A stretch of DNA of 54,460 nucleotides from Kiritimatiellia bacterium. GTDB taxonomy: Bacteria > Verrucomicrobiota > Kiritimatiellia > RFP12 > UBA1067. The notes beneath the pieces are model-generated. The model was not told the DNA's origin. It did not search any database and saw only the letters and a program-made list of their open reading frames with translations. Position 1 is the first letter of the stretch. Each line of letters starts with the position of its first letter. The translations under genes were made by a program, and so were the position numbers. This document shows positions 1-42,587 of the stretch, piece by piece. Location: contig JAFXXW010000029.1 of the NCBI GenBank assembly GCA_017542055.1, forward strand, positions 1-54,460, in the 5' to 3' direction.

Positions 1-307
1 CCTGCGGATAGGAAAGATGACACGATTCTTCAAGCACTATTCCTTGTTGGATCCAGTTTCCGTCTACTTCCTTGAAGCAGCCTAAAACGCCCTTGCCCGT
101 CTTGTCGAGCGTTTCGTAGAAAAGCCAGTTGACACCATCATAACGGAAAAGAAACGGATCCGCGCAATAGTCGGCATTCCATTTGCCCTTACCCATTTCA
201 AGCGGCTTTGGCTCGCCGCCATTTTGCCGCACGAACACCCGGTAGCGTTCGCGACTGAGCCGGAGGTTGAACTCCCTCGCCCACATATAGCGCATGCGGG
301 TCGTCAT
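1..307 (-). CDS. Partial GINT1-N-like sugar transferase or hydrolase-fold protein, C-terminus off the left edge
   Basis: The reading frame opens with an ATG at 307 that overlaps the TGA of the upstream glycosyltransferase (ATGA) and runs without a stop off the left edge, giving about 102 codons. The segment ADPFLFRYDGVNWLFYE followed by LEESCHLSYP resembles the N-terminal beta-propeller region of glucosamine inositolphosphorylceramide transferase-like proteins, where 'ADPF' and 'HLSYP' blocks recur. These domains are often found in bacterial polysaccharide clusters as part of sugar-transfer or formyl-transfer proteins. Position after GT8 and GT2 genes supports a surface-glycan role. The catalytic part is not visible, so the substrate cannot be named. 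Confidence 0.6.
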   Translation of the reverse strand, partial: MTTRMRYMWAREFNLRLSRERYRVFVRQNGGEPKPLEMGKGKWNADYCADPFLFRYDGVNWLFYETLDKTGKGVLGCFKEVDGNWIQQGIVLEESCHLSYPQ

Positions 308-1287
308 ATTTCCTCCTCCGAATACTTCCACAGCAAATACATATAATGCAATATATACCGGCATCTAACATAGCGCCAAGGCACTTTACGTTTGACAAAC
401 AGTTCTCGCACCGTTTGCCCCAATATCCGCCAACGCTCGTGCACGATTGCCGGATCTTGGCATGCCTTGTCGCGGCGGAGCATGTTCAGCACCTGCTTCA
501 GCGACGTAAGCAAAAACCGTTTGCACTGGAACCGCCACAAGCCTTGGGGGTCGCCGTGCGCCCGCTCGTCCGCGTAAAGTTCCCACAATAAAATCATTTC
601 CCGTTGCATTTTGCGCAATTTGGCCGGGCTCACCGACTTGTGCATCATCGAATTGCCCACGCTGGGATTGTAATAATACAATACCGTATCCGCCAACACC
701 CATCTTTGGGCCAGTTTTAAAAGCGCAAACGGCCGGGGCAGGCTGGTCTCCTCGGAAAACGGATGCTTCAATGCAAGGTCACGCGTCGTAAATTGCACCC
801 AGCAATCGGTATGGAACCAGTGCGCATTGAGATAGTCCAACTCCGGAGTAACCACCGGCACTTGGCCAAAATCGCCCAACAGCTTGATATCCGGGATCCT
901 GTCGCCCGCGCAGTTGGCATACCTGAACGCCACGAATTCCACGTCATACCGCTTGGCCGCATACAGGCAATACTCGAGCAGTTGCGGATGCAGGTAGTCG
1001 TCCTTGTCGCACACATATACATATTCGCCCCGGGCGACTTGCACGCCTCGCGTCCGCGCGACGAACGGTCCCTGATTGGATTGCTGCAAAACCCTGATTC
1101 GCGAATCCTTGCCGGCATATTCCGCAATGACTTTAGCGGTTACACCATCATCGCTGGAACCATCATCGACCACAATCACTTCGAAACGCTGTTCCGTCTG
1201 GGCCAAGACGGAATCCAACATCCTGCCCAATAGCGCCCCGGCGTTGTATACAGGAATAACGATTGAAACCAAAGGAGCCTCATTCAT
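304..1287 (-). CDS. Family 2 glycosyltransferase
   Basis: A 327-residue GT-A glycosyltransferase. The N-terminus VSIVIPVYNAG and the VVDDGSSDD block (about residues 39-47) are the classical nucleotide-sugar binding motifs of GT2 enzymes, and KDD near residue 95 fits the metal-binding DxD-like position. It should transfer a sugar from an NDP-sugar to a growing surface glycan at the cytoplasmic face of the inner membrane; donor and acceptor cannot be read from sequence. The start overlaps the end of the GT8 gene by 8 bases and the stop overlaps the next gene by ATGA, so the three are probably one transcript. The basic, aromatic C-terminus may be a membrane-association segment. Confidence 0.85.
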   Translation of the reverse strand: MNEAPLVSIVIPVYNAGALLGRMLDSVLAQTEQRFEVIVVDDGSSDDGVTAKVIAEYAGKDSRIRVLQQSNQGPFVARTRGVQVARGEYVYVCDKDDYLHPQLLEYCLYAAKRYDVEFVAFRYANCAGDRIPDIKLLGDFGQVPVVTPELDYLNAHWFHTDCWVQFTTRDLALKHPFSEETSLPRPFALLKLAQRWVLADTVLYYYNPSVGNSMMHKSVSPAKLRKMQREMILLWELYADERAHGDPQGLWRFQCKRFLLTSLKQVLNMLRRDKACQDPAIVHERWRILGQTVRELFVKRKVPWRYVRCRYILHYMYLLWKYSEEEI

Positions 1288-2227
1288 TTGCTGCCTCCGG
1301 TGTCATATTGCTAGGCGAACGAACTTTGTATTTACCAACCCGTATTCCACAAACCAGCACGCGCCGCACTTGTTTTTTGGTATAACCGAAATAAAAGAAT
1401 CCAGCTATATGACCCAAAATAAACTTAAACGCCCGATTGCGGTACGGCGACTGCAATAAATACTTGAGGTACGGCAACCAGGTGATATTCTTCCAGATGT
1501 TGCACCAAGGCTTCATGGTGAAGCCGGGGAAATGCCAGATGACAATGCCCTTTTTGAATGGACTGTATTTGACATTTATGCCGTCCCACTCCGGCCCCAA
1601 CTGAAGAATCTTGTCGCGGAAAACAATGTTGATCACATCTTGATCCGGCCAAGCCATCTTTGTTCCCATCTCCAATGTCTTGGCCGTCAACTTACCGGTA
1701 TAATCCCCTTCGCGCATCGCCTTCAGATCCATGACCAAAAGACCGGAATAAAAATATGGCGCATCCCCCTCTAGGTGGATTATCTGCTTTTTAAACTCTC
1801 CATTGGCACCCTCGGATACCGCCCCGATGATGTTGCCCTGAAGATCAAGTTCCCACAACGGCTTCAAGTCACCCACGCACAAAACGTCTACATCGCTATA
1901 GATGGTTCGAGCTTCGTCTTTCAAGACCTCCGGCAAGATGTACCGGTAGTACATCTCCTGGGTTACGTGCTCCAATTCGGCCGGGACATGGAACTTCTCG
2001 AAGCGAGAGGCGTCGATCTTATGGAACTCGACCCGGCAATTGGGGTACATCGGCTCCAGTTCCTTCACCTTGCGCTCGTTCTCCGGCGTGATGTTGCGAT
2101 GAAGCACGTGAAAGACGAAGTTATGGTTCCGATTGTGGCAAAGCACGCTCGCCAGCACCACCGCCAGATGCTGGGCATAATTGTCCGATACGCTGAAAGA
2201 TATGGATATCGTATCTTTCCCGGCCAC
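1280..2227 (-). CDS. Family 8 glycosyltransferase (LPS-type hexosyltransferase)
   Basis: A 315-residue protein. It begins with the GT8 pattern ISISFSVSDNYAQHLAVVL and has YSDVDVLCVGDL (about residues 109-120), where DVD is the metal-binding DxD. The later block YFYSGLLVMDLKAM matches the GT8 'FNSGVLLINL' region, and WPDQDVIN the 'DQD' region. GT8 retaining transferases add glucose or galactose residues to LPS cores or other glycans. The start codon is GTG, preceded at 7 bases by AAAGGA, which fits a Shine-Dalgarno sequence and decides this start. It is the first gene of a three-gene glycan unit behind an unusually long leader. Confidence 0.85.
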   Translation of the reverse strand: MAGKDTISISFSVSDNYAQHLAVVLASVLCHNRNHNFVFHVLHRNITPENERKVKELEPMYPNCRVEFHKIDASRFEKFHVPAELEHVTQEMYYRYILPEVLKDEARTIYSDVDVLCVGDLKPLWELDLQGNIIGAVSEGANGEFKKQIIHLEGDAPYFYSGLLVMDLKAMREGDYTGKLTAKTLEMGTKMAWPDQDVINIVFRDKILQLGPEWDGINVKYSPFKKGIVIWHFPGFTMKPWCNIWKNITWLPYLKYLLQSPYRNRAFKFILGHIAGFFYFGYTKKQVRRVLVCGIRVGKYKVRSPSNMTPEAANE

Positions 2228-2619
2228 GTGACAATCCTTTCTTTTATCCGCACTCTTGGGTTACCAGGCCGACACTATGCGGTGCGGAAAAAACAAAGTG
2301 GCGTGCCTTTCTTCTCATGCCTTTCAAGAGGCATCGCCAAACGCCCGTCAGTAAAACATGAATAGAAGGCGCGCCACGTGGATTTCCACGTAGCGCAACT
2401 CCGCATTTCGCTTACTGACTATGAAAATTTGGTAATTTTCTTGAAAAGCGATAATACGCTGTTGCGTACACCTAGCCCGGTTAGGTTGCCCACCCGAGGC
2501 CTGTTCCGCTCCGTCTCTTGCGAGACGTGGGATTTCGGCCGGCTATCCTGCCCGACCGCTATGTCAAAGAACTATACCCAGCCCGTCCAATGCCTTGACC
2601 CGAAATTCTCCACCTCTTG
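2228..2619 (-). other. Long leader (about 390 nt) with hairpins, upstream of the GT8 gene; no recognised RNA family
   Basis: This is the only gene-free stretch over 300 bases. It lies between a predicted promoter (2626-2654) and the GTG of the GT8 gene and has no credible reading frame. On the minus strand it can form at least three perfect hairpins: an 11-bp stem with a 4-nt loop (2371-2396), a 6-bp stem (2317-2334) and a 5-bp stem with a tetraloop (2513-2526). I compared it by eye with RNase P RNA, SRP RNA, tmRNA, 6S RNA and the common riboswitches and found no diagnostic motif. It could be a structured 5' leader or a separate small RNA. Confidence 0.4.
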
Positions 2620-2625
2620 CCTAAT

Positions 2626-2654
2626 AGTATATCATATTTCCTTTGCGATTTCAA
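2626..2654 (-). promoter_or_regulatory. Sigma70-type promoter for the GT8/GT2/GINT1-like unit
   Basis: On the minus strand TTGAAA (2649-2654) is followed by a 17-base spacer and TATACT (2626-2631); the spacer ends in AAATATGA, so the -10 is the extended TGN type seen at nine other places here. It lies just after the stop of the GT10 gene. Confidence 0.7.
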
Positions 2655-2671: not shown

Positions 2672-3649
2672 TTAGGCGCCCCAGACCAGAAGCCGTTTCA
2701 GGTGCAGCCAGCCGTCTTCCAACGCCGCCAGAGGATTGCGCGCACGCAGATCGTGGCGCGAGTAGATGTAGCCCCCGTCCGGCTTGGCGTCTTTGCCGTC
2801 CGTGCCTTCGGCCATGGCCGCTTCGATCACCTTGATGACCTGATCGTTGAAATTGTACTTTTCCAAGATGAGCCGCTTGGCCTCCTTGATGGCCGGGAGG
2901 CGCTTGGAGTATTCGTCGTTGGCGATGGCCGCCTTGATGATGCGTTCGCACTCCTGCGGGTTGTCGATGGGAATGGGAATGAACGACTCGGGCGGCAGCA
3001 CCTTGCCCAAGTTGGGGTCGCCCGCGTAAAAGGCCAGGCACTCGCAGAGAATGGGGTCCGTGATCTTTTCCGACCAATGCCCGGGCGCGATGTGGTTTTC
3101 GATGGCCACGTGATACTTGAACTCGTCGAGCGCGTCCTCTTTTTTGGCGATGTCGCGGATGCCGCGTCCGTACCACTCGAAGCCGGGCACCGATTCCGCC
3201 AGATGCCGGATGAGCGCAAGGCGTTCGTGATGGCGCGTGTGCTGCATCTGCTTGTTGGAGCAGACGGCCGAGATGAGATGCGTCTTGGGCGGAAACGTCA
3301 TGTCGCGCGATTGGCGGAGGCCGCGCGAGATGCCCAAGAAGAAATAGCCCTCGCCGAAATGGTAGTGCGGATGCTTTTCCGCCTTCCAAGGCCGGTTGGT
3401 CAGCATGTGCCCGAATTGCCGGGTGAAGCACTTGCCATAATCCTTGATGCTGTCCGGCTCCATCGTGGCGATGATCGTACGTTCGCGCGGACAGGCCAGC
3501 TTTTCCGGATGGCCCTGCATAACATCCTCGAACGCCACAAACCAGTCGTAATCGTGACAGTCCGCGCCGCCCACGAACGTCCAACCCGGACGGTATTCGA
3601 AAGCCATATTCCCGCCTTCGAACATTTTGGTCACCACTTTTATCCTCAT
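2672..3649 (-). CDS. Family 10 glycosyltransferase (alpha-1,3-fucosyltransferase-like)
   Basis: A 325-residue protein. The C-terminal half carries the GT10 signature: FKYHVAIENH, then WSEKITDPILCECLAFYAG and later LPPESFIPI, matching the conserved 'FENS...EK...G.P...PP.SFI' pattern of alpha-1,3/4-fucosyltransferases that use GDP-fucose. N-terminal residues (MRIKVVTKMFEGG onward) form the acceptor half. The start is the ATG at 3649, which overlaps the upstream GT4 stop by ATGA; extending further upstream would only read through the GT4 gene out of frame. No GDP-fucose synthesis gene is in the window, so the donor is inferred from the family. Confidence 0.85.
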   Translation of the reverse strand: MRIKVVTKMFEGGNMAFEYRPGWTFVGGADCHDYDWFVAFEDVMQGHPEKLACPRERTIIATMEPDSIKDYGKCFTRQFGHMLTNRPWKAEKHPHYHFGEGYFFLGISRGLRQSRDMTFPPKTHLISAVCSNKQMQHTRHHERLALIRHLAESVPGFEWYGRGIRDIAKKEDALDEFKYHVAIENHIAPGHWSEKITDPILCECLAFYAGDPNLGKVLPPESFIPIPIDNPQECERIIKAAIANDEYSKRLPAIKEAKRLILEKYNFNDQVIKVIEAAMAEGTDGKDAKPDGGYIYSRHDLRARNPLAALEDGWLHLKRLLVWGA

Positions 3650-32693: not shown

Positions 32694-32767
32694 GCGGGCG
32701 TAGCTCAATGGCAGAGCGCCAGCCTTCCAAGCTGGTTACGAGGGTTCGATTCCCTTCGCCCGCTCCA
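32694..32767 (+). tRNA. tRNA-Gly(TCC)
   Basis: A full cloverleaf: acceptor GCGGGCG pairs with CGCCCGC, the D-arm is GCTCAATGGCAGAGC, the anticodon loop CTTCCAA gives TCC, and the T-loop is GGTTCGATTCC. The 3' CCA is encoded (32765-32767). Confidence 0.97.
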
Positions 32768-32773
32768 ACGCAT

Positions 32774-32859
32774 GCCAGAGTGGCGTAATGGCAGCCGCAG
32801 CAGACTCAAAATCTGCCGCACGCAAGTGCGTGAGGGTTCGAGTCCCTCCTCTGGCACCA
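32774..32859 (+). tRNA. tRNA-Leu(CAA)
   Basis: A class II tRNA with a long variable arm. Acceptor GCCAGAG pairs with CTCTGGC; the anticodon stem GCAGA/TCTGC encloses loop CTCAAAA, anticodon CAA. The variable arm is GCACGCAAGTGCGT-like and the T-loop GGTTCGAGTCC. CCA is encoded (32857-32859). It starts only 6 bases after tRNA-Gly. Confidence 0.96.
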
Positions 32860-32879
32860 TGCGTAAAAAACGGTCTTGC

Positions 32880-32970
<91 letters not shown>

Positions 32971-42512: not shown

Positions 42513-42587
42513 TGGCTCGGGCGGCTGGATTCGAACCAGCGACCAATTGATTAACAGTCAACTGCGCTACCGCTGCGCCACGCCCGA
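42513..42587 (-). tRNA. tRNA-Asn(GTT)
   Basis: Cloverleaf on the minus strand: acceptor TCGGGCG pairs with CGCCCGA, the D-arm is GCGCAGCGGTAGCGC, anticodon loop CTGTTAA gives GTT, T-arm GCTGGTTCGAATCCAGC. CCA is encoded (42513-42515). Confidence 0.97.

Follow-up and report, generated by a model that had tools for sequence, protein, structure and literature searches.

The non-coding leader at positions 2228–2619 (minus strand) of contig JAFXXW010000029.1, from a Kiritimatiellia bacterium, carries a structured RNA whose conserved core belongs to a real family that is absent from Rfam 15. Throughout, the window is the whole stretch analyzed, the 54,460 nucleotides (nt) of this contig, and L and G numbers are our labels for loci and genomes. 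As a preliminary description of this DNA had proposed, the leader is real: a promoter, approximately 390 nt of non-coding RNA, and a ribosome site precede two glycosyltransferase genes. That description left a novel riboswitch, a JUMPstart-like antitermination element for long glycan operons, and a small RNA side by side as interpretations. The riboswitch-like one fits best, on account of a folded domain, two exclusive stems, and a paired ribosome site, and we consider the leader to be, fairly probably, a cis-acting riboswitch-like attenuator of a family outside Rfam 15. Termination, the direction of the switch, and both the existence and the nature of a trigger are what we infer from these features, and the name riboswitch is used in that sense.

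A structured RNA family absent from Rfam 15

The leader folds at −149 kcal/mol, compared with −123.8 kcal/mol in shuffled sequences (standard deviation 5.3; z −4.7; 0 of 100 shuffles). The evidence for a conserved structure comes from an alignment (A2) of 61 copies, the window copy and 60 fetched regions, in which the core adopts a fold of eight helices, some in sets that cross one another and one a kissing loop. Across 50 base pairs, 95.1% of cells hold standard pairs, and 36 of the pairs show compensatory changes on both sides; none of 500 shuffles reached any of five structure measures, and slid controls paired 32–53% of cells. P1, P2, P6, P7, and P8 guided the fitting of the alignment, in which P3, the kissing loop, and P5 had no part. 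In these last three helices, 82.6, 99.8, and 90.8% of cells are paired and 6 of 6, 6 of 7, and 5 of 5 pairs are compensated, respectively. When the arms of each copy were compared with swapped arms, 0 of 10,000 permutations equaled the observed pairing for P2, P3, the kissing loop, P5, P6, P7, and P8; P1, which hardly varies, gave 259 of 10,000. RNAalifold alone found P1, P7, P8, a short P6, and a local hairpin around GGCGTTTGGCGATGCC. It missed P2, P3, P5, and the kissing loop because crossing helices cannot be drawn, and these were spotted by eye on alignment A1 and then tested statistically.

The same structure is found in distant copies, which come either from other families within the class or from beyond it. 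Twenty of 23 matches were used, without L229 (the same copy as L187) and two partial matches; L224, a 100-base stub, was likewise set aside. P3, the kissing loop, and P5, all absent from the search model, are kept in these copies (0 of 10,000 permutations each; 18 copies after two near-duplicates were dropped). Their pairing is poor in three distant copies, the second copies of L225 (at 2901) and L226 (at 2091) and that of L227. L225 and L226 each hold two copies 210–260 nt apart (2481–2644 with 2901–3041 and 2091–2231 with 2443–2637, respectively), and one copy of each pair is degenerate in P3 and the kissing loop. Overall, the secondary structure of the family is very well supported.

The leader has no match in Rfam 15 at gathering thresholds; a scan of the window and of 18 loci that hold distant copies matched nothing apart from tRNA and rRNA genes. 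Permissive filters (E-values up to 5 on the leader and up to 1 on six loci) yielded no credible match either: a match to STnc400 on the leader, at 18.4 bits where the threshold is 80, is due to chance, and a match to ALIL overlapping one copy reached 18 bits against a threshold of 50. The preliminary description had suggested testing for covariation, conservation in relatives, and membership in a known Rfam family; these tests found covariation, a leader conserved in relatives, and no Rfam family at threshold. No description of this RNA was found in the literature searched, whose coverage largely excludes subscription papers and preprints.

To follow the family through related genomes, we used the leader as a blastn query and built a covariance model, R1, from 26 copies that match it by construction. 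By blastn, the leader matches 24 of the 58 genus and order genomes searched, the window's own included; most matches span positions 2469–2280 of the window, and a few are short promoter-side ones. The leader's second match in its own genome covers only the promoter region and the first bases downstream (query 11–72 of 451). With E-values up to 0.01, R1 detects the core in 49 of the 61 genus genomes and in 111 of the 161 from the order; with E-values up to 0.001, the counts are 162 of 345 for the class and 85 of 387 for a sample of the phylum (the samples overlap). As a control, 200 genomes from a different phylum, sampled around a Massilia genome, gave no match at an E-value of 0.001. One clear copy is present in the window's genome, eight strong copies in G117, and up to 16 R1 matches in a single genome, a figure that is rough, as copy numbers are bounded by the candidates scored and include some weak opposite-strand matches. 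The core stems are so symmetric that R1 weakly matches the opposite strand of the window copy (2274–2387, plus strand, 23.4 bits); such matches are excluded from our own copy count and included in the match counts of the tool. A DNA pattern of the core retrieved 60 stretches in named contigs. One of them, L123 from Massilia, is a chance match (8.6 bits, in a genome otherwise without a match), and the others come from assemblies whose titles read Kiritimatiellae or Kiritimatiellia, Lentisphaerae, Verrucomicrobia, or simply "bacterium"; rumen and gut samples account for many of them. With the single pattern used, viral contigs gave no match; collections of phage and plasmid records lay outside this search. 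The distant copies in L218, L228, and L222 lie approximately 0.5–1 kb from tRNA genes or a 5S rRNA gene.

The predicted expression platform

The three hairpins of the preliminary description are all present (CGTCTC-GCAA-GAGACG at 2527–2512, GTACGC-AACA-GCGTAT at 2469–2454, and a 12-pair stem at 2397–2370). The last is the hairpin reported there to precede a pyrimidine stretch, and it is indeed followed by CCTTCTATTC; it differs from that account in that it competes with a second, terminator-like stem downstream, P8, which is followed by a U-tract (Table 1). Nearly all of the P8 5′ strand falls within the 3′ strand of extended P6. The two share a median of 11 nt, with an overlap of 4 nt or more in every one of the 61 copies and in 16 of the 20 distant copies. 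Median energies over the 61 copies are similar, −22.2 kcal/mol for P8 and −25.9 kcal/mol for P6. Covariation links P8a to P8b (0 of 10,000 permutations) as well as to the outer strand of P6 (2 of 10,000); the outer P6 strand and P8b, a control pair, do not covary (6850 of 10,000). By this model of a shared strand, P6 and P8 appear to be mutually exclusive.

Downstream of P8, six or more of the core's last 10 nt are U in 58 of the 61 aligned copies and 19 of the 20 distant ones. The tract also forms one arm of P9, which reaches into the ribosome site and whose arms covary (0 of 10,000 permutations). In 46 of the 51 copies assessed, the pyrimidine tract pairs with three or more bases of the Shine–Dalgarno hexamer; the other 10 of the 61 were omitted for having no open reading frame (ORF), no recognizable P8 end, or a start too far away. 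The good ribosome site of the preliminary description, GAAAGG located 8 nt upstream of the GTG start codon at 2227, is present in the window, where three of its six bases are paired to the U-tract in the minimum-energy fold. P8b also covaries with the downstream tail (4 of 10,000 permutations in 52 copies and 6 of 10,000 in 19 distant copies, L220 being left out for having no U-tract by the rule applied). Its partner there is the P9 loop in many copies and the strand covering the Shine–Dalgarno sequence in some distant ones; pairing of the P8 3′ strand with the P9 loop is supported, but less strongly than the other helices. By eye, the leaders of L145 and L155, which have a different 5′ domain type and no clear boxA, carry a purine-rich run, GAAAGGAAGAAAAGA, that is apparently complementary to the pyrimidine tract after P8, and related runs are seen in L139 and L187.

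Because P6 and P8 share a strand, and because of the U-tract, P9, and the pairing of P8b with the tail, we propose two states, one with P6 and an open ribosome site and the other with P8, termination, and P9. The folded domain (P1, P2, P3, the kissing loop, P5, and P7) would choose between the two stems that compete for one strand. In the first state, extended P6 would hold the shared strand and block P8, such that polymerase reads on, and the freed 3′ strand of P8 would pair with the P9 loop and open the ribosome site. In the second, expected when the folded domain is complete or trigger-bound, P8 would form beside the U-tract and stop transcription, and transcripts that escape would keep their ribosome site paired in P9. 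Which of the states the folded domain or the trigger favors is a guess on our part.

Table 1. Positions of the leader elements and adjacent genes in the window
Feature	Position	Strand	Support
Promoter TTGAAA-17-TATACT, TG before the −10	2626..2654	-	10/12 matches
boxA-like site AGTTCTTTGACAT	2561..2573	-	12/13 of TGNTCTTTGACAT
5′ domain hairpins GGTCGGGC/GCCGGCC and CGTCTC-GCAA-GAGACG	2512..2559	-	folding
Motif GGGTGGGCAACCTAACC	2479..2495	-	common to leaders of the same 5′ type, e.g. L134, L135, L152, L161 (by eye)
Conserved core, model R1	2288..2471	-	161 bits, E-value 1.1e-40; window copy among the 26 R1 builders
P1 hairpin GTACGC-AACA-GCGTAT, nearly invariant	2454..2469	-	helix 1 of the alignment
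P2, CGCTT (2450-2446) with AAGCG (2413-2409)	2409..2450	-	0/10,000 permutations
P3, ~2446-2438 with ~2329-2322, crosses P2	2322..2446	-	z −27.8
Kissing loop, TTACCAA (2435-2429) with TTGGCGA (2340-2334)	2334..2435	-	99.8% of cells paired
P5, GTCAGTAA (2419-2412) with TTACTGAC (2354-2347)	2347..2419	-	z −25.2
Extended P6 hairpin, candidate antiterminator, 3′ strand contains P8a	2364..2402	-	−26.9 kcal/mol
P7, about 2361-2354 with 2321-2314, enclosed by P8		-	covariation
P8 terminator-like stem, GTGGCGCGCCTTCT (2377-2364) with AGAAAGGCACGCCAC (2312-2298), encloses P7	2298..2377	-	covariation
U-tract TTTGTTTTTTCC directly after P8	2286..2297	-	sequence
P9 hairpin, U-tract + CCGCAC (2297-2282) with GTGCGGATAAAAGAAAGG (2253-2236), into the ribosome site	2236..2297	-	folding, covariation
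GTGTCGGCCT, proposed to pair with the P8 3′ strand in an alternative pairing, PX	2266..2275	-	−11.2 kcal/mol, window copy
First gene, glycosyltransferase family 8 (GT8), GTG start at 2227	1280..2227	-	PF01501, E-value 1.9e-42
Second gene, glycosyltransferase family 2 (GT2)	304..1287	-	PF00535, E-value 7.7e-31

At the other end of the leader, the consensus promoter already recognized in the preliminary description is found, and its position predicts a transcription start near 2619. The match is weak evidence by itself, with two such sites seen in the 2 kb scanned and 1.3 expected. Elsewhere in the window, four tRNA genes are located at 32694–32966 and 42516–42587.

The boxA-like site and the genes behind the leader

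A second feature of the leader is a boxA-like site between the promoter and the core. Sites matching at least 11 of 13 positions of TGNTCTTTGACAT occur there in 43 of 61 copies, compared with 8 of 1220 shuffles, and lie 90–304 nt upstream of the core; the exact heptamer TCTTTGA is present in 35 of 61 leaders, compared with 0.025 per 330 nt elsewhere in the loci. The TCTTTGACA box is not a −35 element, as none of the 43 has a −10 (5 of 6) at 16–18 nt, and a −10-like hexamer lies within 130 nt upstream of the boxA-like site in 35 of 43 copies (291 of 860 shuffles). Since no 16S gene was found in the window's own assembly, the comparison with rRNA leaders was made in relatives. Among 12 loci with a 16S start, six have TCTTTGA in the leader, four have TCTGTGA, and two have a leader shorter than 45 nt; examples of the TCTTTGA type are TGATCTTTGAAAA, GTTCTTTGAAAA, and GGTCTTTGAGAA. 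By sequence, the leader box appears to match the boxA of the relatives' rRNA leaders, a conclusion that is supported, but more weakly than the structure. In the window's bacterial family, boxA probably protects the long untranslated leader: it would load NusB/S10 upstream of the core, so that Rho does not cut the leader short.

These sites are also what speaks for a protein-dependent processive antitermination leader of the put, EAR, LoaP/dfn, or RfaH/ops kind, in which the RNA and boxA would recruit polymerase-modifying factors past terminators in accessory operons and no small molecule would be sensed. Their resemblance to the relatives' rRNA leaders, the −10-like hexamer upstream, and targets that include a BREX gene and large surface proteins would all suit such a leader. 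Only 2 of 20 distant copies that keep the core reach 11 of 13 boxA positions, however, and do so at −299 and −320, far from the core, so boxA does not belong to the design of the core itself. In mechanical gene calls, a number of targets resemble single genes or short operons, and a modified polymerase needs no paired ribosome site, yet that pairing is conserved. We therefore regard this explanation as unlikely, although it is the strongest competitor of the attenuator. The antitermination idea of the preliminary description stands insofar as a boxA-like site precedes the core in the window's bacterial family, but the element is neither JUMPstart/ops nor specific to long glycan operons. Neither the JUMPstart model (RF01707) nor any other regulatory Rfam family matches the leader. 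The ops element of JUMPstart/RfaH is GGCGGTAGC; it has no exact match in the window, and none of its 23 one-mismatch matches there falls within 2228–2654.

Of the 61 copies, 58 are followed by an ORF start, which in 49 of these 58 lies at +43 to +64 downstream of the core; the choice of start favored ATG and a Shine–Dalgarno match between +39 and +118. Fifty-four of the 58 first ORFs were scanned, with L165, L179, L157, and L190 left out as doubtful frames, and gave Pfam matches in 39 families. Among the 25 families shown, LRR_5 occurs six times, FGE-sulfatase and LRR_8 five times each, the Listeria-Bacteroides repeat four times, kinase and FRG twice each, and the rest once or twice; the only glycosyltransferase among them is the window's own gene. 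The genes behind the leader are unrelated: they encode secreted proteins of the LRR and sulfatase-factor-like kinds, BREX and type I modification components, kinases, and glycosyltransferases. An exclusive link to glycan operons is rejected. Ten proteins picked because they looked defense-like, a choice that says nothing on enrichment, comprise BrxA, a type I modification methylase with HsdM_N, an SNF2/PLD helicase, Z1, FRG twice, PDDEXK_4, a KAP NTPase, a protein with only a CBS domain (L158), and one with no family in either library (L143). A secreted protein with a QRYPWNG-like or similar N-terminal stretch recurs behind the leader in L188, L140, L191, and L215; those of L188 and of the distant copy L215 have an FGE-sulfatase domain, and that of L191 has Listeria-Bacteroides repeats.

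The position of these genes bears on whether the leader is an independent small RNA, with P8 and the U-tract ending most transcripts, an RNA of approximately 330 nt acting in trans, and read-through being secondary. Strong folding and the conserved U-tract after P8 would suit such an RNA, but the start codon lies at a narrow distance behind most copies, the covarying P9 ties the RNA to the ribosome site of the gene, and the copies precede different genes. An independent small RNA is accordingly improbable in our view.

Different parts of the leader do not always travel together. L134 and L136, from two species, are 99% identical in the core and 58% identical in the 5′ domain and precede unrelated genes. 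Conversely, L153 and L167, from one genome, share 88% identity in the 5′ domain and 70% in the core (medians over all pairs, 51 and 76%, respectively), and L152 and L161, again from one genome, have similar 5′ domains and divergent cores. Judging from these sequences, the core, the 5′ domain, and the gene seem to have separate histories, with modules recombining between genes and species. The same pairs could reflect a mobile or gene-converting promoter–leader cassette that spreads to new genes and whose fold serves recombination rather than regulation, but the fold shows compensatory changes along its whole length and closes with a paired ribosome site, which indicates a role as RNA within the mRNA and makes such a cassette very improbable.

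Counter-evidence, candidate triggers, and known systems

Several observations weigh against reading the leader as a riboswitch-like attenuator. The permutation tests ignore relatedness between copies, and the control strands P3a and P8b, for which no pairing was expected, gave 287 of 10,000; relatedness therefore inflates these tests, and results of 2–6 in 10,000 are supportive rather than proof. The ten-nt pyrimidine tract tested against the ribosome region alone gave a weaker 208 of 10,000. As an intrinsic terminator, P8 and its tract are both conserved, but the enclosed loop of approximately 50 nt is atypical, the pyrimidine tract is interrupted by C in many copies, and a simple terminator scan did not list P8. 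Twelve of the 61 genus genomes, all incomplete bins, showed no copy, boxA falls below the 11 of 13 level in 18 of 61 copies, and the downstream genes have no shared pathway and so offer no hint of a ligand. The window copy itself may be impaired, because an A–C mismatch in its kissing loop, the sole unpaired cell of that helix in 61 copies, breaks a pair in the only clear copy of its genome.

To gain insights into a possible trigger, we looked at two cyclic dinucleotides. No GGDEF domain was found in the 59 genus genomes searched, which makes canonical cyclic di-GMP (c-di-GMP) an unlikely trigger. The cyclic di-AMP (c-di-AMP) cyclase domain DAC is present in 58 of the 59. A c-di-AMP trigger is unsupported, as DAC also occurs where no RNA copy was found, for example in G058 and G066; G075 (85% complete), the sole genome without DAC, has five RNA matches. 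We tentatively suggest, as a possibility that falls short of probable, that the leaders form a phylum-wide riboswitch class, unlisted in Rfam and in the literature searched, that senses one shared signal, whether a nucleotide messenger or an infection- or surface-related cue. A dual switch of terminator and ribosome site would then control accessory genes of Verrucomicrobiota, namely phage-defense operons (BREX, type I modification, helicase, and FRG), large secreted proteins, and glycosyltransferases, with 5′ and core modules exchanged between genes.

If the attenuator reading is right, a structured RNA unmatched in Rfam 15 is present in several copies each in many genomes of a little-studied phylum of gut and environmental bacteria, where it precedes defense, surface, and glycan genes, and the downstream genes would constitute a ready-made regulon. 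The trigger would be either a new signal or one already known that has a new RNA sensor, and the combination with boxA would mean that Nus-factor protection is used for long riboswitch-like leaders. The kissing loop and crossing helix sets also make this an RNA for structural work.

Among known RNAs, Acido-Lenti-1 (RF01687) is a structured RNA from Lentisphaerae, a neighboring group, and is listed as not cis-regulatory (PMC2864571). RF01687 is a released Rfam family, yet our Rfam scan matched tRNA and rRNA only. EAR and JUMPstart/ops resemble the present leader in being long non-coding leaders with a terminator and a factor-recruiting RNA element. The LoaP-dependent dfn leader of Bacillus velezensis shares these features, but its element is a small UNCG hairpin (PMC12691694), unlike the 180-nt core with crossing helices described here. 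The boxA of suhB and CKO_00699 likewise lies in mRNA leaders away from rRNA (PMC5725501); here, in contrast, boxA lies 90–304 nt upstream of a 180-nt folded core, and elsewhere in the phylum the core occurs without a nearby boxA. Overall, the arrangement is like that of riboswitches with both transcription and translation platforms, in which a conserved folded domain precedes a stem that resembles a terminator, a hairpin that competes with it, and a ribosome site that is base-paired, and it is unlike them in that no Rfam riboswitch model matches this leader and that boxA precedes it. c-di-GMP riboswitches, similar to the members of this family, occur in several copies per genome before different genes.
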